This document shows positions 25,473 through 62,065 of a DNA stretch of 64,000 nt, in pieces (position 1 is the first letter of the stretch; every line of letters begins with the position of its first letter). The notes beneath the pieces are model-generated. The model had not been told where the DNA came from, searched no databases, and saw nothing but the letters and a program-made list of their open reading frames with translations. This stretch comes from a virus. The stretch is from positions 62,001-126,000 of IMG/VR virus record IMGVR_UViG_3300020469_000008, one strand, 5' to 3'. The position numbers were made by a program, and so were the translations under genes.

Positions 25473-25895
25473 ATGAAAAAAATTAATAGAGATGAATTGC
25501 GTAAATTGATTAATGAATCAATGAGTATCTTGTCGCGACAGGACGCAGAAGTTGATGCATTTATCGATAAAATTGAAAGAATATCAAATGGTAATGCAGA
25601 ACACCCAATGGTAATAACTGATACAATTGTCAGCATGAATCCTGCAACGAGTATGGGAAGTTACTTGTTAGATTATATTCGCGCGCTACCTAGTATGGCA
25701 GATCAATACCCGATTTATCGACAAAGAGCACAGCGTATCAAAGATGTTTTGCTAGCTTTTTTGTTCGCTCTAAATGATCGACACGGCCCACTTGCAGATG
25801 AAAAGACAGCCGCGAATACACCGTATGCACTTGACTTTGTTAAAAAAGCTCTCAGTGTTTTAAAATCAATTGATTACAATCCGAGATACAATTGA
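25473..25895 (+). CDS. Tag-bearing (putative capsid-targeted) protein
   Basis: 140 residues from ATG 25473; GGGAGG seven bases upstream supports this start over an in-frame TTG at 25467. The N-terminus MKKINRDELRKLINESMS is the shared basic-hydrophobic tag with a predicted INE15|S16 cleavage point. The rest is helical (DAEVDAFIDKIERISNG, YRQRAQRIKDVLLAFLFALN) with no catalytic motif that I recognise. It lies between the ClpP-like and Dps-like genes. The tag suggests packaging in the head and possible delivery into the host. Confidence 0.65.
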   Translation: MKKINRDELRKLINESMSILSRQDAEVDAFIDKIERISNGNAEHPMVITDTIVSMNPATSMGSYLLDYIRALPSMADQYPIYRQRAQRIKDVLLAFLFALNDRHGPLADEKTAANTPYALDFVKKALSVLKSIDYNPRYN

Positions 25896-37546: not shown

Positions 37547-38458
37547 TTAAGCAGTTGCAGCATCAGCTGCTGCTGAAAATAACATTCCAGCCACATTTGA
37601 TGAACCTGGGAATATTAAATCAAAACCAGCTTTAGCAAAATCATTTGCAGCTTGTTTCGCAGCAGACTTGCCTTCTTTTACGTCCCCAGCTGTCTTTTGA
37701 ATATATTCTAACATTTCTGTATATAACTTTTCTGGAGCGTTTTCTAATTCTTTCTTTTGTCTTTTAAATTCTTTTTTAATTTCATCGAAAAAATTAGAGC
37801 TAATTACACCATCTGTTAATAGATCCAAAGCAACGCCTTCTTGTTTCATTGAGACTTTATTATCTTTGACTTCTATAAGCTCAGCAGCTAAATGCTGAAT
37901 CATTTCCTTTTCACCGTAATTCTTGATACCTAAATTAGCAGTTACTTCGGCAAACCCATCTTTACTATCAAAGTCTGAATCAGTTAAATCCATACCATAC
38001 TGTTTTACTCTTTTAGCTCTGTCACTATTTAGGTCGTCATACATCTTGCGCAAATTTCTTAATGCCCCTTCGACAGTACTTAAATTGTCAATTGTATTAA
38101 TTAATATTGCCGGTACTATTGAGTAAGCTGCAATAACAGCCGCGCCTAAACCAAAGGCACTCGCTCCGGCCGCTAAGCTTTCTCCAGACAAAAAACCGAT
38201 CTTTGATAATGCTCCACCGTATTTTGCAAGATAATCATCAAAATTACTAGTTGTAACTTTTTTAACTACGTCGTCCAGCACACTTAATGAGTTATTGAAA
38301 TCTGAGAGTATACTTTGGTCTGTAATTATGTCCTTCGCTACAAAATTAGCAAACTCACCTGATACTGACTTAAGCTCGTTAAGCATTTGGCTATTTCTTT
38401 TATTAGCAAATAGAAACTCTAGAATTATTGTATTGAGTTGTCTTTTTGAAATTTTCAT
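37547..38458 (-). CDS. Tag-bearing (putative capsid-targeted) protein with hydrophobic core
   Basis: 303 residues on the minus strand. The start at 38458 is fixed by GGAG six bases upstream on that strand; a longer in-frame extension to 38527 lacks such a site. The N-terminus MKISKRQLNTIILEFLFANK is the shared tag, with ILE14|F15. A central Ala/Gly-rich hydrophobic region of about 30 residues (AAGASAFGLGAAVIAAYSIV and beyond) could form a membrane hairpin. A second small-residue segment closes the C-terminus (FPGSSNVAGMLFSAAADAAT). It is one of only two minus-strand genes, convergent with the J-protein gene. It may be an ejected membrane-active protein. Confidence 0.65.
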   Translation of the reverse strand: MKISKRQLNTIILEFLFANKRNSQMLNELKSVSGEFANFVAKDIITDQSILSDFNNSLSVLDDVVKKVTTSNFDDYLAKYGGALSKIGFLSGESLAAGASAFGLGAAVIAAYSIVPAILINTIDNLSTVEGALRNLRKMYDDLNSDRAKRVKQYGMDLTDSDFDSKDGFAEVTANLGIKNYGEKEMIQHLAAELIEVKDNKVSMKQEGVALDLLTDGVISSNFFDEIKKEFKRQKKELENAPEKLYTEMLEYIQKTAGDVKEGKSAAKQAANDFAKAGFDLIFPGSSNVAGMLFSAAADAATA

Positions 38459-40344: not shown

Positions 40345-40603
40345 GGTGGTAGTGGAATCAAACGTGACATTTAATGGTAAAAAAACAGATTTGTCCTTTG
40401 AGGAAATCAAAGTAAAGGTCGATCTGTATGGTTCTTTTTCAGGATCAATTAATGCAGGAAATACAATGTTTTTATTTAACAATGTAAAGTCTGAAGATTT
40501 TCAGTATTATGTAGATACCTTTAAAAAACATTTAAACCAACAAACCGAAGCTGAGGTGACCTTTGACATTCAAACAAATGCTATTGAAACAATTACAATA
40601 TAA
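40334..40603 (+). CDS. Hypothetical small beta-rich protein
   Basis: 89 residues from ATG 40334, inside the end of the dUTPase-like gene; GTG 40352, with GAGGT before it, is an alternative start giving 83 residues. The sequence alternates short strands (VESNVTFNGKK, EIKVKVDLYGSFSGSI, NTMFLFNNVKS) with one helix. No family is recognised. It overlaps the next gene by 41 bases, so translation is probably coupled. Confidence 0.55.
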   Translation: MVTEVVVESNVTFNGKKTDLSFEEIKVKVDLYGSFSGSINAGNTMFLFNNVKSEDFQYYVDTFKKHLNQQTEAEVTFDIQTNAIETITI

Positions 40604-41507
40604 CAAAAAAATTGTTGGCCCCGGTGATCAATTATCACAAGAATTAAAAGAGAAGATAACACAAGATAATGTACTATGTGCACACGCAGAACTAAGTGCG
40701 TTAGTAAATGCAACTAACTATAAAAACCACCATCAACATTCAGAACCCCTAGCTAATAGAAGAACTGTTTTGTATGAGACGGTTGATGTTATTAGATATA
40801 TGATGGCAACACTGAATACATGGGAGATAACATCCTCAGAGTTTGAAAGGGCTTTTGAGAAAAAGGATGTTTATCTTAATAAGCATTACGAGCTGCAGCA
40901 GAAAAAATGGACCGGACAACCTGTTGCAATTGTTGATATTGATGATGTTCTAGCTAATTTTCGAGTTGGTTTCTCTGATTGGCTGTATGAAAAATTTGGT
41001 GTAAGGGCAGATGTAGATTCTAAAGAATATTACTTTATCACAGCACTTTCAAAAATTAACCTTAACTCTGAATCTGTATTTAAGATGTTTCTTGACGACG
41101 AAGGATTTGCAAACTTAACTATAGACACTGACAATTTAGAAATTCTGTGGCAATTAAAGAATAGAGGATACTGGATTCATCTTCTAACAGCACGACCAGA
41201 AGAAGAACTCCAATGTTTGTATGACACGTATTTTTGGATCTGGCAACAAAATATTCCGTGTGATGCAATAAGCTTTTCACCTGAAAAGTTTAGATGGTGT
41301 GCTAAATCAAAATACTATGATGCAGGTGCAATTAAATTCGCAATTGATGATGCACCAAAACATGCTGAAGATTACGCAAAACACGGAATTAAATGTTTGG
41401 TACCTAATAAATCATATAACGAGCATTTAAGCCATCAAGATATCTTTCATTTTAATACTTATAGTCAAGCTATTTCCATTTTAAAGAGTGAAAATTTATT
41501 AAGGTGA
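40563..41507 (+). CDS. Fusion of MazG/dUTPase-like domain with HAD-family nucleotidase
   Basis: 314 residues. I accept TTG 40563 because GAGGTG is correctly placed; ATG 40578 is an alternative. Residues about 20-110 resemble an all-alpha NTP-PPase (HAELSALVNATNY and LYETVDVIRYMMATLN with E/D metal ligands). Residues from 120 are a HAD hydrolase with AIVDIDDVLANF (nucleophile Asp125, acid Asp127), a WIHLLTARP motif II and FAIDDAPKHAEDYA motif IV. This resembles 5'(3')-deoxynucleotidases. The fused enzyme could take a dNTP to a monophosphate and then a nucleoside. The natural fusion in this order is unusual. Confidence 0.75.
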   Translation: MTFKQMLLKQLQYNKKIVGPGDQLSQELKEKITQDNVLCAHAELSALVNATNYKNHHQHSEPLANRRTVLYETVDVIRYMMATLNTWEITSSEFERAFEKKDVYLNKHYELQQKKWTGQPVAIVDIDDVLANFRVGFSDWLYEKFGVRADVDSKEYYFITALSKINLNSESVFKMFLDDEGFANLTIDTDNLEILWQLKNRGYWIHLLTARPEEELQCLYDTYFWIWQQNIPCDAISFSPEKFRWCAKSKYYDAGAIKFAIDDAPKHAEDYAKHGIKCLVPNKSYNEHLSHQDIFHFNTYSQAISILKSENLLR

Positions 41508-41510
41508 AGA

Positions 41511-42413
41511 ATGAGATTATCGAAAAGCCAGTTAAGTCTAATTATTGAAAACTATTTATTAGAAAGCGTTAATACAGAATCTATACGTTCTGAATTTGAA
41601 AAAGCAAGAGATCAACTTAAACAAGAATTTTTAAATTCAGATAAATTTGATAAAGTTGTAAGGGCTAGTGTTGGTAAAGGTTTAGACATGACGCATCTTT
41701 ATGTAGTTCCAAAAGATGATCCAATCAATAAGAATCCTGAGTTTTCTGCTTATGAAGGTTATGCACTTCACGTAAAATTTGTAAGGGGTGAAGAAAGACC
41801 TAAAAAAGAATATTTTGATACGGACATAATAAAAGACAAAGAATTGGAAAGCAAGTTTAGTTCAAAGCCTATTGTAAATCCAATTGTTGTTATATTTGAA
41901 AAAAATATAAAATCAAAAATTAGCCTTAAGCGCTTATTACTTCATGAGCTCGGTCACGTAAAAAACAATTTTTTAAAGTTTTATGCCGGAATAGATTTGA
42001 ATGTTAATGAGGTTCGAGCGGTACTTCGAAAAGATTTTCAAGGAAAGTCTATCGGTAAAATTGTAAATATACTTAGATCTGAAAAGCGCTTAGGTAGAAT
42101 TAACCCACCAGGTTTTTTAAGGCTAGTAGAACGACTTAAAAAATATTATGATGGCGTTTTTGCAGATCCAGCAGATGAATTATCAGTTGACGAGTTTGCT
42201 GTTAGAATATCGGCTTTGCAAAGAGACATTGTTGCGCAAGCTTCAGTTTCACCCCGTGCTGAAGAAGTTATGTCATTTACAAAAATGGAACGTAAATATG
42301 GGATAGACGCAGCCGGCTTAGCACTATTTTTGGAAAAAAATGTTACATTTGAAAAGATACAAGCAGTGGCACAAAACATTAAAAAAAGTAACACAAAAAG
42401 TGCAACAGGGTAA
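41511..42413 (+). CDS. Tag-bearing zinc metallopeptidase-like protein (putative virion protease)
   Basis: 300 residues. The N-terminus MRLSKSQLSLIIENYLLESV is the shared tag with likely cleavage at LLE18|S19. A zincin motif, LLLHELGHVKNNF, lies at residues 142-154 (HELGH 145-149), preceded by a strand (PIVVIFEKN) as in metallopeptidases. A third zinc ligand could come from the downstream helices, for example Glu in DPADELSVDEFAVR, a gluzincin-like arrangement. It is the clearest enzymatic cargo among the tagged proteins. It sits between nucleotide-metabolism genes, four bases after the HAD fusion. Confidence 0.72.
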   Translation: MRLSKSQLSLIIENYLLESVNTESIRSEFEKARDQLKQEFLNSDKFDKVVRASVGKGLDMTHLYVVPKDDPINKNPEFSAYEGYALHVKFVRGEERPKKEYFDTDIIKDKELESKFSSKPIVNPIVVIFEKNIKSKISLKRLLLHELGHVKNNFLKFYAGIDLNVNEVRAVLRKDFQGKSIGKIVNILRSEKRLGRINPPGFLRLVERLKKYYDGVFADPADELSVDEFAVRISALQRDIVAQASVSPRAEEVMSFTKMERKYGIDAAGLALFLEKNVTFEKIQAVAQNIKKSNTKSATG

Positions 42414-42473: not shown

Positions 42474-42707
42474 ATGTTACTATTAATTTTAAATTTGTCA
42501 ATCGCTTCAGCACAAGAAACAGATAAAAATGTTCGCTACAACAAAAGAACAGAAATTGATTTTGAAGGCTTAGATATTACAGGTGAAATGATAAAGCCGA
42601 CAGGTGCTCTAGTTCAGTCTAGACAAACTGCTAAGTTTAATCCGTTGATCAAGATTAGAACAGACTTTAACCTAGAAATGGCACAGTCTATAAACAACGT
42701 TAAATAA
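42474..42707 (+). CDS. Small secreted/periplasmic protein
   Basis: 77 residues, ATG behind CAGGAG. Residues 1-13 (MLLLILNLSIASA) form a short signal peptide with an Ala-x-Ala-type site before QETDK. The mature part contains RTEIDFEGLDITGEMIKPTG and KFNPLIKIRTDF. This resembles, from memory, small exported proteins of Deltaproteobacteria and Bdellovibrionota linked to envelope or gliding machinery; that similarity is weak evidence. It has a TATAAT at 42423-42428 upstream and a strong terminator downstream, so it is a separate transcription unit. The function is unknown. Confidence 0.6.
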   Translation: MLLLILNLSIASAQETDKNVRYNKRTEIDFEGLDITGEMIKPTGALVQSRQTAKFNPLIKIRTDFNLEMAQSINNVK

Positions 42708-42812: not shown

Positions 42813-43796
42813 ATGCCACAAAATCTAGATTTAAAACCTGTCGACTTACCAATGGAGTTGAAGTTTGGTCAAGAACCACACACAATTTTCCATAACAATC
42901 TTGAACATCTTAAGGTAGAACTTATCGATGCTCCTACACGCTCACAAGCATTAAATGTTGCTTGGCAATATGTAAAAGCAACTTGGGCTGATCATCATGA
43001 TGAGACAAATCCAAGCACAACTAGTCTTAAAGAATTGTCTGCAAATCTCGAGGATGTGCTCTGTTTCCGCGCGCTACCAACACCAATGGAATGCCTAGGG
43101 TTTACTTTTAAGTTGTCTGGCTTGTCATTTCAAGAGGTTACACACATTATTCGACATCGAGCGGGTTCTTTCGCAGCTCAATGTACTGGTGATCGCGATT
43201 TACGTGACGATCCTGCAGTTATTCCTGAAGCAGTACAAAACTCTCCTGAGTTTCTGGAAAGATATAAAAGAATTGTGCGTGATTCAAAGCAACTTTACGC
43301 AGACATGACAGATTCAAAAGATGTATCAATGATGGATGCAAGAATGATTCTTCCAAAGGCAATGACATCATTTTATCTGATGCGTCTTAATCTCAAAGAT
43401 TTGTTAGGTTTTATTGCACAACGTCAAGATATGCAAATCCAACCTGCAGCAGATAATTTACTTGCCGTTTACATGGCACGTGAAGTTTTAAAAGTTTTAC
43501 CTGAGGCATCAGCAAGGATTGATTTCAACAAACCAGATATGCACTACATTAAAACGTTCCGTGTACCTGATGGTAAAGGTGGAGAAACATCGCGAGGCAC
43601 AAATCTGTACTGGCCTGAACCTAAGAATGATAAATTTGATTATCATCCTAACGATACAATTTATCAGTCACGCCGAGAGGATATTAACGGTACACATAAT
43701 CCAGGTACAGAAACAGTTTTCACACAATTGTGGAATGAAACATTAACAGAAATCGATGCAATTAAAGCGTCATACAATCAATTTATGGGGAAATAA
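42813..43796 (+). CDS. thyX: FAD-dependent thymidylate synthase
   Basis: 327 residues, ATG behind AAGGAG. The ThyX motif starts IIRHRAGSF (114-120), with the RHR and Ser of RHRxxSxNExSxR, though the following residues are AAQCTGDRD and so diverge from the strict consensus. A second conserved block, ARMILPKAMTSFYLMRLNLK followed by DLLGFIAQRQDMQIQPAADN, carries the folate/dUMP-site residues. It makes dTMP from dUMP using FAD and NADPH. It is longer than typical bacterial ThyX (about 220-250) because of a C-terminal extension from about residue 245. It pairs with the adjacent deoxyribosyltransferase and downstream kinases. Confidence 0.85.
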   Translation: MPQNLDLKPVDLPMELKFGQEPHTIFHNNLEHLKVELIDAPTRSQALNVAWQYVKATWADHHDETNPSTTSLKELSANLEDVLCFRALPTPMECLGFTFKLSGLSFQEVTHIIRHRAGSFAAQCTGDRDLRDDPAVIPEAVQNSPEFLERYKRIVRDSKQLYADMTDSKDVSMMDARMILPKAMTSFYLMRLNLKDLLGFIAQRQDMQIQPAADNLLAVYMAREVLKVLPEASARIDFNKPDMHYIKTFRVPDGKGGETSRGTNLYWPEPKNDKFDYHPNDTIYQSRREDINGTHNPGTETVFTQLWNETLTEIDAIKASYNQFMGK

Positions 43797-44315: not shown

Positions 44316-45707
44316 ATGAAAATTACACGACGACAATTGAGACGACTATTAAGTGAAAGACTGTTAGTAGAAGCATCTGCTGAAGAATTAGCAAATATGA
44401 AGGGCACATATTCTATAAACCCACAGTCTGCGCAGTCACTAGGATTCGCCGGGGCTCAATCAGGCGCCGGACAAATAAAGGTCGGTCCTCGAGGCAACGT
44501 GAACGTTGGAACTAAGGATGGAAATTTTATCCGTGAAATCAAACCATCAGAAGTCACTCCGGAGCAACTAAATTACATAACACTCGGGTATGATAGAAAA
44601 CAAGCAGCAAATAATACCGTCATGGGGGAAATGAGCACTTATTTCAGAAAAAATGCAGGGTACTACAAGGTCAACAATCAATCCGGTGTACCTGCAGGAG
44701 CCACACACATTAGAATTTATGGTGATGCTAAATACCGATATATCAATTTCAATGAAAAACCAGAAAAATATGTAGGTGCCAAAGAACCAATTGCACCCTC
44801 TGTATTCCTCGGTTGGAAAAGCTTCATCGATGGTTTGACGAAAGACAGCAACCCGAGCAGTGCTGATACTTCCACTGAAGGTGAAACAGACACCAGCGCT
44901 GAAAGAGACGGTGAACAGCAACAACAACAGCAGCAACAACAGCAACCAAAACCAGAAAAGAAGAATAAACCAAAAAAATCAGCTGATAAAGATAAGAAAG
45001 TTGCTTTCATAAGAAAAGTTATTGGTGATGACGCTCCTGGCAAGTGGAACAAAGAATCAGATAAAAAGTGGAAAACTTGGGTCGAAGGGCCATACTACGC
45101 AGCAGGCGTACGCACATTTCAAAACTTTTATGCGATGGTGCAATTAGGTAAAAACAACAAAACTAATGCAACAGAAGAGGATTTTGATGCAGCTCACAAA
45201 GAAAACAACGCTGTCAGTTTAGCTAAATTAGCGGGATTCAAACCAACAATTTCAGGTGTCTACAACATGTGCAAAGAAATTGATGAAATGTCGAAAGAAG
45301 ATCTTCAAGCTACAGCAATGGCAATAACTGCTACTACTGAAGGAGAAACAAACACCGCGGCGAGCAAAGCAGTGGACAAAGATGAAGTAATAACTCAATC
45401 ATTTACCGACGATATTAAGGCTGAGATGTTTGGGGATGAAATTGCCAAAATTCAAGATCCAAGAGAAAAGTCTCGAGCAGTCAAAAACGTAGTAAACGCG
45501 TACAACAAGAAGAAAGAAGAATTAAAGAAAAAAGGCGACGAGAGGGAAATTCAAAATTTGGATAGAGGATTTAAGCTTTTTAAGAAAAGGTCTAAAGCTT
45601 CGAAAGAATTTGAAGCTGCATCTGAAAAGGTTGATGAAATAAAAGACCTGCAAGAATCGTTAAGCAGGGGCGCACTATATAGAAAGCATTACTACGGAAG
45701 ATACTAG
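44316..45707 (+). CDS. Tag-bearing (putative capsid-targeted) protein with poly-Gln linker
   Basis: 463 residues. The tag is very clear: MKITRRQLRRLLSERLLVEA, with predicted cleavage LVE19|A20. The following 160 residues are mixed alpha/beta. Next comes a low-complexity linker (Asp/Ser/Thr/Glu, then ten Gln in a row near residues 200-210, then Pro/Lys), and a helical C-terminal half rich in Lys, Glu and Ala. It has no recognised catalytic motif. The gene stands alone between two transcription units and ends tail-to-tail with a minus-strand gene, stops overlapping by three bases. It is a probable internal head protein. Confidence 0.68.
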   Translation: MKITRRQLRRLLSERLLVEASAEELANMKGTYSINPQSAQSLGFAGAQSGAGQIKVGPRGNVNVGTKDGNFIREIKPSEVTPEQLNYITLGYDRKQAANNTVMGEMSTYFRKNAGYYKVNNQSGVPAGATHIRIYGDAKYRYINFNEKPEKYVGAKEPIAPSVFLGWKSFIDGLTKDSNPSSADTSTEGETDTSAERDGEQQQQQQQQQQPKPEKKNKPKKSADKDKKVAFIRKVIGDDAPGKWNKESDKKWKTWVEGPYYAAGVRTFQNFYAMVQLGKNNKTNATEEDFDAAHKENNAVSLAKLAGFKPTISGVYNMCKEIDEMSKEDLQATAMAITATTEGETNTAASKAVDKDEVITQSFTDDIKAEMFGDEIAKIQDPREKSRAVKNVVNAYNKKKEELKKKGDEREIQNLDRGFKLFKKRSKASKEFEAASEKVDEIKDLQESLSRGALYRKHYYGRY

Positions 45708-46774
45708 ATCAATATTTTCTTCTTAAGTTTTTCAGATACAAGGTGTCTAAGAGTGAGCTCGTCAATACGAAACAACCTTCGTTCTTCTAGACCTCTTTGC
45801 TTTTTATCGTCTAGTTTAACTTCACGTCCAGTATCAGTAATTTTCTTTTCTTTAAATTCCATCTTCTTATCTGAAGTAATATCTTTAAGTTTCACACTGA
45901 GATCATCGTTGATTTCTTTACCTGAGATCGGCATAATAGCAGAAAGCTTTTTACCTTTTACCAGTTCAAACATAGCTGTTATTGTTTGACGTCCAACTTT
46001 GTAATCTTTTTGCAATCCATTTGCCTTCTGAAACTTACCAACAGCTTCTTTTGTTTTTGGGCCATAATCGCCATCGATATCATCGTCGGAATCTAAGTGT
46101 TTAAGTTGTACTAACGCTTTTTGTATTGCAGCTGTCATCATTTTATTTTCATTGTCTGATTTATTCATTGAAGTACTTAGAATTTTGTCACCTGACAATA
46201 CATCTTTAAAAAGTTCTTTTGCGCTAATCTCAAAGTCTCTGATTCCTTCTACACCGATAATTGTAATCATCCATTTAATTACATTGAATGTACCTTTTTC
46301 TGTTTCTTGCTTTACAACCTTAGGTTCTTTACCGCCAGGCTGTCGTTGTAACTTTGTACCATCAGCATCCGCGGCTGCTTTAAGTTTATCCTTACCTATT
46401 TTCTCTTCCGTATCTTTAACTTTTTGTGCACGATCGATACCTACGGAAACCTTAGCTTTTGATATGAATTGTTTTAGCTTTGACTTTATAACCTTTCTTT
46501 TGTCTTTATCAATTGCCATACCGAAGTAACTTAGAATTTTGTTATAAAAATCGATGTCTCCACTACTTAAGTTTCTATGCTTAGAACTTTTATTAAGTGC
46601 CGATTGTAATCCATCAAATAAGGACTTTGCTTTTTTGTTGAAATTTTGTTTTGATTCAGTTTGTGCTAGCGCAACTAGTCTTAGTATGATTGCATTTTTT
46701 ACGTCAAATTGTGCGTTTTTCATGCCAGGTTGCATGAAGGTTTTAATTGCTTGTCTGTCACCTCTTTTAAGCAT
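45704..46774 (-). CDS. Peptidoglycan-binding-domain protein, putative virion component
   Basis: 356 residues on the minus strand, start at 46774 with AAGGAG upstream on that strand. A PG_binding_1-like module is visible near residues 215-270 (AIQKALVQLKHLDSDDD, DGDYGPKTKEAVGKFQKANG, KVGRQTITAMFEL). The flanks are Lys-rich helices. The C-terminus, ELTLRHLVSEKLKKKILI, resembles the basic-hydrophobic tag motif of neighbouring proteins but at the opposite end. It could bind the cell wall during entry or be another internal protein. It is one of only two minus-strand genes. Confidence 0.68.
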   Translation of the reverse strand: MLKRGDRQAIKTFMQPGMKNAQFDVKNAIILRLVALAQTESKQNFNKKAKSLFDGLQSALNKSSKHRNLSSGDIDFYNKILSYFGMAIDKDKRKVIKSKLKQFISKAKVSVGIDRAQKVKDTEEKIGKDKLKAAADADGTKLQRQPGGKEPKVVKQETEKGTFNVIKWMITIIGVEGIRDFEISAKELFKDVLSGDKILSTSMNKSDNENKMMTAAIQKALVQLKHLDSDDDIDGDYGPKTKEAVGKFQKANGLQKDYKVGRQTITAMFELVKGKKLSAIMPISGKEINDDLSVKLKDITSDKKMEFKEKKITDTGREVKLDDKKQRGLEERRLFRIDELTLRHLVSEKLKKKILI

Positions 46775-48494: not shown

Positions 48495-49019
48495 ATGAAA
48501 ATAACACGTAGACAATTAAGGCAATTGGTTGTAGAAGCAGCGATGGTAAGCGATGATCCTTTGATAATGCAAGTTACTAGTATGAACAGTTACTATGATC
48601 TAGTTGAGGTTTGCGAAAGAACAAACAATGTAGGGTTAGTAAACGCTTTATTGAAAGCAGTTAGAGAAAGAAACGTTGGCGGATTAAAACACATCGGTAG
48701 ATTTGGGATCGGTTTTATTCCTGTTGATCGCCCTGGACAACCAGCATCTTACAAGGTAACATATGCAGATACACAAAGAGCAGTAAAGGAAATTGATGAA
48801 AAATCTTACAAGTATTTAAATTATAACTTAAAACTCCAAGATAGCGGCGCATTGGCTCATTTATTTAATCCGTGTGCAAAAGCATTGAAAACAGCAGCTA
48901 AAGAGGCGGGAAGATTAATACAAGATGCTATCGATAATCCAGATCGCTATGCTGCACCTGAAAGAACATTTTTGCAAAAAGCAGGGAGTTTTTTAACAGG
49001 AAAAGGATATAGCGAGTGA
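48495..49019 (+). CDS. Tag-bearing (putative capsid-targeted) protein
   Basis: 174 residues from ATG 48495, supported by TTGGAG; an in-frame TTG at 48483 is less likely. The N-terminus MKITRRQLRQLVVEAAMVSD is nearly identical to the tag of the 44316 protein, with cleavage predicted at VVE14|A15. The remainder is a compact mixed fold (VGLVNALLKAVRERNVGGLK, FGIGFIPVDRPGQPASYKVT) without a recognised motif. It sits between a zinc-ribbon gene and the polymerase III gene. Confidence 0.65.
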   Translation: MKITRRQLRQLVVEAAMVSDDPLIMQVTSMNSYYDLVEVCERTNNVGLVNALLKAVRERNVGGLKHIGRFGIGFIPVDRPGQPASYKVTYADTQRAVKEIDEKSYKYLNYNLKLQDSGALAHLFNPCAKALKTAAKEAGRLIQDAIDNPDRYAAPERTFLQKAGSFLTGKGYSE

Positions 49020-52637: not shown

Positions 52638-53732
52638 ATGCAAATAAGCAGATTAAATCTAAAAAAACTCATAAAAACGTTATTGAACGAAGATTACGAA
52701 GGTTTTATTGGCGGCCCTTCACCTGGGGAAGGTAAAGTTACAACAATGTCTGGGGACGAATTAAATAGAATTTCTGCTGAACTTAAAGGCAGAGACTTAA
52801 GTCAGATACCACCAAGTTTGCAAAAGAAAATTGGAAAGATAGCAGATAGAGCACCAGCAAAATTAAAAAAAAGTGCAGCAAGATATTTTAAAGGAAAATC
52901 ATTTTTAAAGAAAGCAAGTCAAGTTTTTGGAAGATCTTTTCCTGATTCTGATGTTTTTCTTGTGCCTTTTGCTGGGGGATCCCGAGAAGCTGCTGATTTA
53001 ATTTTTGGTTATGACGACGATTTTACACAGAGTGACTTTGCATATTCAAGGGCAACGCCGGAACAACGAGAGTATTTTTCTGACAAAGATTATAATCTAA
53101 TGTCACCTCAGCGGATGGCGATGGCTAGAAACAGGCTTACATCGATGGATATAAGAAGACATTTAATTTTTGATCTATTTGCAGAAGGAATTAATATGCT
53201 TTCAAACTTAGGTGTAACAATTCAAGAAGCAGAAAAACTAAACATAGAAAACGACATTGTTTTTGTACCCATTGCGTCAGCACAACCTGGAAAATTTTTG
53301 GCAACACCCCACATGATTCTACATGCACTGATAGACACAACAGGTGAAAAAGGTGGTACAGAGTTAGATGAAATAGTCGAGCCGCTACATCGAGAAATGT
53401 TGTCAATTGCAAATGATCTTGGTCTAAGTAGAAACTTAGTAAAGGAAGCCTATCCAGACAACGAATATTTCGATGCTTTCGAGTCACTAGCAACCACAAA
53501 AGCTGGGCGGATGAAAATGATACAAACAACTTCTGATATGGTTTCTGAGATGTTAGTACAGGAATTAGCACAATATGGAAATAAAGGCTTGAGATATAAT
53601 CTAAGTAGTCTAGCACAATTTCCAGAGGCAACAAAAAGTAAACTTGCAGACTTCAAGGTTTCTATTGAGAATACAGCAGCACAAATTAGAGAGTTGCTGA
53701 AAGGAAAAATTGTCTTAATAAATGTTGTGTAG
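52638..53732 (+). CDS. Tag-bearing (putative capsid-targeted) protein
   Basis: 364 residues. The N-terminus MQISRLNLKKLIKTLLNEDY follows the tag pattern with LNE18|D19 as the possible cleavage site. The body is mostly helical, with RDLSQIPPSLQKKIGKIADR, a SYxR-like FAYSRATPEQREY patch and TPHMILHALIDTTGEKGGTE. I recognise no catalytic motif. The gene lies between dnaE and the small leaderless-looking gene at 53772. Confidence 0.62.
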   Translation: MQISRLNLKKLIKTLLNEDYEGFIGGPSPGEGKVTTMSGDELNRISAELKGRDLSQIPPSLQKKIGKIADRAPAKLKKSAARYFKGKSFLKKASQVFGRSFPDSDVFLVPFAGGSREAADLIFGYDDDFTQSDFAYSRATPEQREYFSDKDYNLMSPQRMAMARNRLTSMDIRRHLIFDLFAEGINMLSNLGVTIQEAEKLNIENDIVFVPIASAQPGKFLATPHMILHALIDTTGEKGGTELDEIVEPLHREMLSIANDLGLSRNLVKEAYPDNEYFDAFESLATTKAGRMKMIQTTSDMVSEMLVQELAQYGNKGLRYNLSSLAQFPEATKSKLADFKVSIENTAAQIRELLKGKIVLINVV

Positions 53733-60924: not shown

Positions 60925-61383
60925 ATGAAAATATCAAGAAGACAACTTAGAAAAATTATTTTAGAAGCATTTCCAAGAGATGAATATGGATATGATGCTT
61001 TAAAAACACAAGCAGAATTAGACGATGGCGACGGAGAATACGCACTGTCATCATCACAAAGACACTCTTTAGACCGCCAAGAAGAATTAAAAGATATGAA
61101 ACTCAATGATGATAATGCTTACCTTGTGCATGTATACTTAGCCTCTGCACTTAGTGACGGTGATAAGATGGCAAGAGTTCCAGCGTGGGGTGTGGCTGCT
61201 AGTCAGCTGTCGACACGTTTTTCAGCAAATTCATCTGATGAAATAATGCCTGAAGTTGAAGAGGTATTAAATAGCTTTTTATCTAACCCGAAACTTGGGA
61301 TGATGGATAAAAGAAGACTCCAACGCGAAATACCTAAATTTAAGGACATGTTACGAAGAGCGATGGATAATCCTGAATTTTAA
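60925..61383 (+). CDS. Tag-bearing (putative capsid-targeted) protein
   Basis: 152 residues behind GAGGAA. The N-terminus MKISRRQLRKIILEAFPRDE shows the tag in its purest form with ILE14|A15. The mature part is helical and acidic (LDRQEELKDMKLND, AYLVHVYLASALSDGDKMAR, PEVEEVLNSFLSNPKLG). No enzyme motif is evident. It precedes holin-like and other tag-bearing genes. Confidence 0.65.
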   Translation: MKISRRQLRKIILEAFPRDEYGYDALKTQAELDDGDGEYALSSSQRHSLDRQEELKDMKLNDDNAYLVHVYLASALSDGDKMARVPAWGVAASQLSTRFSANSSDEIMPEVEEVLNSFLSNPKLGMMDKRRLQREIPKFKDMLRRAMDNPEF

Positions 61384-61669: not shown

Positions 61670-62065
61670 ATGAAAAAATTAAATAGAAGAAAGCTAAGAG
61701 ATGTAGTTTTAAAAGAAACAAAAAAAATCCTTAAAGAATTTCGAAACATCAATCAACTTGACGTGGTACATGTAGCACCTGTTGTTAGAGACTTTAATAA
61801 AAAAGTCGTTGCTGCGCTCGCAAAATACAATACAAATCAACTGCCTCAAGATTTATCTGAAAATGGTAGGCAGATAGCATACCAGTTTGAAACAATGATT
61901 GCATCAACAAATTCAATCATGGGTCCAGATCGCACAACTGATGATAGAATTGCAACATGTGATAGAGCAATCAATGATATACAAGAGATGAAAATATTAC
62001 TTAAACAATCATCCCGCGTTGATTATGATGACACAGTCCTTACATCTAGACCGTATGATAACTAA
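61670..62065 (+). CDS. Tag-bearing (putative capsid-targeted) protein
   Basis: 131 residues from ATG 61670, chosen over an overlapping in-frame TTG at 61619. The N-terminus MKKLNRRKLRDVVLKETKKI is a divergent tag with candidate sites LKE16|T17 and LKE23|F24. The rest is helical (RDFNKKVVAALAKYNTNQLP, DRAINDIQEMKILLKQSSRV). No function is recognised. It lies between membrane proteins. Confidence 0.55.
   Translation: MKKLNRRKLRDVVLKETKKILKEFRNINQLDVVHVAPVVRDFNKKVVAALAKYNTNQLPQDLSENGRQIAYQFETMIASTNSIMGPDRTTDDRIATCDRAINDIQEMKILLKQSSRVDYDDTVLTSRPYDN

Follow-up and report, generated by a model that had tools for sequence, protein, structure and literature searches.

A putative zinc metallopeptidase with a capsid-targeting-like N-terminal tag in an uncultured large phage

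The window analysed here, a stretch of 64,000 nucleotides at positions 62001-126000 of the virus record G000 (202,054 bases), contains a gene whose predicted product, P0001, combines an N-terminal tag resembling a capsid-targeting propeptide with an HExxH motif. By analogy with T4, we propose that P0001 is a capsid-targeted, gp21-processed and ejected metallopeptidase with a host target, a reading to which we give a little less than an even chance.

The P0001 gene and its product

The P0001 gene (41511..42413, + strand), defined by its ORF and translation, encodes a tagged putative zinc metallopeptidase of 300 amino acid residues and has an orthologue at the same locus. Its ATG start is preceded, at a distance of 4 nt, by a Shine-Dalgarno-like AAGGTG read from the sequence (41501..41506, +). 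The first-pass annotation had proposed that one protein joins the tag end LLE18|S19 to HELGH at residues 145-149, and the translation places both exactly at these residues. The tag, residues 1-18 (MRLSKSQLSLIIENYLLE; 41511..41564, +), is a putative capsid-targeting propeptide recognised by matrix score and shuffles, with a predicted cut after E18. HELGH (41943..41957, +; HEVGH in the orthologue) is predicted to supply two zinc-binding His and the catalytic Glu. E228 (42192..42194, +), in the stretch VDEFAVRISAL (VEELSVRLSAL in the orthologue) and in predicted helix 226-245, is a candidate third zinc ligand. A predicted edge beta-strand, residues 125-129 (41883..41897, +), lies ahead of the active-site helix in the AlphaFold2 model from a three-sequence alignment (block pLDDT 66).

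P0001 gave no family match at useful E-values in Pfam, PHROGs, NCBIfam or PADLOC. Searches with P0001 alone returned no homologue from the viral, genome and INPHARED collections, and solved structures gave no match by sequence and chance matches only by profile search. Two DNA patterns (tag and HExxH combined, or a strict tag variant) retrieved nothing across viral contigs, and the related records searched contained no full-length P0001 match away from the locus.

The N-terminal tag

ORF starts were matrix-scored over large parts of 18 related records (tail-tube relatives, then flanking-gene relatives). A position matrix was built from 93 further tags of related phages, with P0001 excluded from training, and on this matrix the P0001 tag scored 24.6 bits. 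ORF starts outside the training set had a mean score of -35 (SD 12). When the first 18 residues of P0001 were shuffled, 0 of 100,000 shuffles reached 24.6 bits and the best reached 17.6; the P0001 tag is beyond chance. The consensus MKITRxQLRxLIxE is common to 113 tagged proteins whose bodies are otherwise unrelated and which share little else, and the tag part of the profile by itself picks up unrelated proteins. The surveyed, matrix-scored parts contained 27 tagged proteins in G000 and 35 in G001. A propeptide-like N-terminus shared among unrelated proteins, as in T4-type internal proteins, is thus found in the tagged set, and the tag is genuine and modular. Tag queries of 20-21 residues had no match in 50,697 phage records; queries so short are weak.

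Of the 93 tags, 65 have their Glu at position 14, and nearly all have an [LI]xE that ends at position 13-15 or 18; this ending fits the T4 gp21 cleavage rule at the level of the motif. E18 is identical in P0001 and both other members (3/3), the orthologue tags ending in INE18 and the P0001 tag in LLE18. The stretch just past E18 does not align between the members, and the orthologue has an insertion there.

Alternatively, the tag could be no head signal but an N-terminal docking helix for another phage or host structure, with the protein acting in the cytoplasm during infection. The strongly basic tag agrees with this reading, and so does the scan of the isolated phages immuto and Mel-JY01, which have related tail tubes and an annotated prohead protease and in which no tag was detected. 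However, the [LI]xE ending is consistent among the tags, the tag aligns and the residues just past E18 do not, as expected of a cleaved propeptide, and the tagged proteins are many and unrelated, as T4 internal proteins are. We regard the docking helix as unlikely and head targeting of P0001 as fairly probable.

Locus and orthologue

P0001 occupies an accessory slot. Its left border is a conserved 314-aa gene, HAD-like by reading (40563..41507, +), and its right border is a small conserved gene of 77 aa (42474..42707, +), downstream of which lies a gene assigned by reading as ThyX-like (42813..43796, +). L094, L109, L140, L145 and L148 have no P0001 counterpart: there the 75-77-aa gene comes immediately after the 314-aa gene, and the ThyX-like gene comes next. 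Because the slot is empty in these relatives, we regard P0001 as an accessory gene at this place, and it is missing from the locus in most relatives. In L148, another tagged gene sits between the 75-77-aa gene and the ThyX-like gene.

A search with the flanking 314-aa gene found the orthologue in the same slot of another genome (L143:7941-8918, G047). It is a tagged protein of 326 aa, with 29% identity to P0001 (phmmer E=2e-24, BLASTP E=2e-29). A 117-aa N-terminal piece of a related protein lies at the contig end of L147, and the comparison set of P0001 consists of only one full-length orthologue (L143) and this fragment. Between G000 and G047, P0001 is 28.8% identical, compared with 89.6% for the 314-aa gene and 91.1% for the ThyX-like gene. 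P0001 diverges far faster than the neighbouring genes.

The three best conserved 11-residue blocks in a pairwise scan were LLLHELGHVKN/LLLHEVGHIKN, the tag, and VDEFAVRISAL/VEELSVRLSAL. H145, E146, H149, E228 and E18 are all identical in P0001 and the orthologue, and D227 is replaced by E. Loss of the histidines and glutamate from homologues had been named in advance as evidence against a metallopeptidase; in the one full-length orthologue, at 29% identity, the HExxH residues are retained.

The HExxH motif and the predicted fold

The expected number of HExxH motifs is 0.005 per 300 aa and 0.87 over 185 tagged proteins (44,422 aa). The motif was seen seven times in these 185, including P0001, the orthologue and one 800-aa protein present in two related records. 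Since 0.87 would be expected over the set, the pairing of tag and HExxH alone means little. The motif of P0001 is taken to be beyond chance because its two His and its Glu, together with E228, are retained in an orthologue of 29% identity.

Other tagged or tag-like HExxH proteins of relatives are L097:3994-5388 (HEIHH) and L114:3628-4422 (HELLH), which resemble P0001 in having a tag or tag-like N-terminus and HExxH, the L114 tag being a differing variant. The tagged HExxH protein first noticed in the window is present as described, but the pairing is not unique, as these two relatives have different ones. Shuffle tests gave no support for homology of P0001 to either protein, and no similarity was detectable. 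The variant tag of L114:3628-4422 (G033) is MMKLLHEYIRSTLMSE, and other G033 ORFs begin with MKLLREYIRSLL, which suggests a second tag type. By inspection, HEDGH of the 800-aa tagged protein and HEQYH of a tagged protein of 551 aa are probably not zincin motifs. HEIDH of the tagged protein L185:5246-5584 is HNH-like by inspection, and this protein is probably a nuclease rather than a zincin.

The orthologue matched Pfam Peptidase_M48 (PF01435) over the HExxH region with E=0.0077 and 16.5 bits, under the curated cut-off of 20.3, and P0001 had no match to PF01435. On these sequence scores P0001 is outside Pfam M48 as filed, as the cut-off is not reached. A Hodarchaeota match of the orthologue spans the HExxH region only. 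P0001 is like the HExxH zincins (Pfam Peptidase_M48, SprT-like) in having HExxH and a downstream Glu candidate, and differs from them in that its 300 aa have no family assignment.

In zincins, HExxH and a downstream Glu ligand lie in helices behind an edge strand. AlphaFold2 on three sequences gave a model with mean pLDDT 60 and pTM 0.48, in which strand 125-129 is followed by helix 136-158 containing HELGH and by helix 226-245 containing E228. The element order of this model suggests a zincin-like arrangement. The single-sequence model (pLDDT 36) was uninformative. Foldseek with the three-sequence model returned no significant match; its weak, non-significant matches include the zincins PepO, MATCAP, AR9 zincin and SprT-like. 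The first-pass annotation had looked to structure prediction for a zincin fold and a third zinc ligand. A candidate ligand, E228, and a zincin-like element order were obtained at this mean pLDDT, but the fold search did not add a significant match. E228, which lies in a conserved block downstream of HExxH, would be the likely third ligand.

The fold search result would also suit a zincin-like or non-proteolytic packaged body that acts by binding, its HExxH being structural or catalytically silent; T4 IPI*, which is an inhibitor and not an enzyme, offers a precedent (PMC3012670). We consider this improbable, however, as E146, the two His and E228 all persist in an orthologue of 29% identity and fall within the most conserved blocks, a pattern suggestive of an active site under selection. 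That the body of P0001 is a zincin appears quite probable.

Head protease, known systems and proposed mechanism

G000 encodes a prohead protease of the T4 gp21 type (PF03420, E=5e-29), which also matches the head maturation protease phrog_207 (1.7e-53), and the portal and major head protein are encoded nearby. The phrog_138 match of the 650-aa major head protein (L084:6895-8847) does not begin until residue 319, and a long N-terminal part of the protein lies outside it.

In T4, propeptides of 10-19 residues direct proteins to the core before proteolysis takes them off, and a foreign protein joined to the CTS is packaged and delivered (PMC9026906). The internal proteins of T-even phages are a diverse anti-host set in which the CTS is the only shared part (PMC3012670). 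Like the set to which P0001 belongs, T4 IPI, IPII, IPIII and Alt, whose CTS is cut by gp21, have a short N-terminal propeptide with E at the cut; both sets have unrelated, fast-changing bodies and a gp21-type protease in the phage. T4 Alt is an injected enzyme, and its likeness to P0001 lies in the proposed role. The tag here is the basic MKITRRQLRRLIxE, which is likened to the T4 CTS by layout and predicted cut site. G000 further differs from T4 in the 27 tagged proteins, and P0001 in a body that is a putative metallopeptidase. In phages of the SPN3US/phiKZ type (gp245/gp175), a gp21 relative cleaves the propeptides of many head proteins on the C-terminal side of Glu (PMC10052503, PMC9026906). 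The SPN3US cut motif is A-X-E, in contrast to the [LI]xE of the tag here, and a word search of the SPN3US paper text found no mention of a metallopeptidase.

P0001 may work like a T4 internal protein or like Alt, and has the tested sequence-level features of that class. The pre-protein would consist of an 18-residue capsid-targeting propeptide and an HExxH...E zinc metallopeptidase of ~280 residues that presumably binds zinc. The tag would dock P0001 in the prohead core, where, judging by the motif, the phage's own gp21-type protease would cut after LLE18. As in T4, the mature enzyme would remain among the packaged DNA and be ejected into the next host. There it would cut a host protein at the start of infection, as one of the fast-changing injected effectors. 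The first-pass annotation had suggested that an injected protease could attack host defence or transcription proteins; its reading is partly supported, by the tag family, the gp21-type protease and the residues conserved in the orthologue. The full chain of targeting, cut, ejection and host cleavage is, at best, slightly short of evenly likely.

A capsid-targeted metallopeptidase that works inside the prohead or virion, processing scaffold or other tagged proteins and not the host, would agree with the tag, with the head protease of the same phage and with the common internal processing of head proteins in large myoviruses, but we find it quite improbable, as the phage already encodes a gp21-type protease, P0001 diverges far faster than its neighbours, and its gene, without a full-length match elsewhere in the searched records, is absent at the locus in most relatives, where an assembly enzyme should be conserved.

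No packaged phage metallopeptidase was found in the titles and abstract openings of the open-access papers that literature searches retrieved, which is not proof of absence. If P0001 is ejected into the host as proposed, a protease would join the known kinds of enzyme packed with phage DNA.

Other tagged proteins

Five further tagged proteins are encoded in the window, each recognised by its tag: 37547..38458 (-; MKISKRQLNTIILEF), 44316..45707 (+; MKITRRQLRRLLSERLLVEA), 48495..49019 (+; MKITRRQLRQLVVEA), 52638..53732 (+; MQISRLNLKKLIKTLLNE) and 60925..61383 (+; MKISRRQLRKIILEAF). Possible tagged proteins at 25473..25895 (+; MKKINRDELRKLINES) and 61670..62065 (+; MKKLNRRKLRDVVLKE) were picked up by regular expression only and are absent from the matrix-scored list. 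Reciprocal best matches between G000 and G001 comprised 1 tagged protein, against 125 untagged ORFs. The tagged set is hypervariable, as the T4 internal proteins are.

Most tagged proteins match nothing. Family matches in the set of 113 include HNH, TseH-like and 5'-3' deoxyribonucleotidase, and L087:1839-2822 (G000, outside the window) is a tagged L,D-transpeptidase (YkuD_2, 6.9e-32). A wider reading, which we hold to be somewhat unlikely, is that a group of uncultured large phages carries dozens of swappable injected effectors under one N-terminal tag, including metallopeptidases that cut host proteins almost as soon as infection begins. If it is true, the tag would be a searchable label for phage-injected effectors, and the arsenal of an unstudied phage group could be listed from sequence.

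A C-terminal motif like ESLSRGxLYRxxYxxRY occurs on different tagged bodies, namely 44316-45707 of the window, L140:3146-4138, L140:4157-5446 and L133:9127-10074. A tag-like C-terminus was observed at 45704-46774 (-) of the window (RIDELTLRHLVSEKL) and in L148:8183-9046 (QINEKRIRAIIRHEL), and could be a C-terminal propeptide of the kind reported for T4 Alt. Small tagged genes follow one another almost without a break over a long stretch of G033, from L117:10024 to L118:5845.
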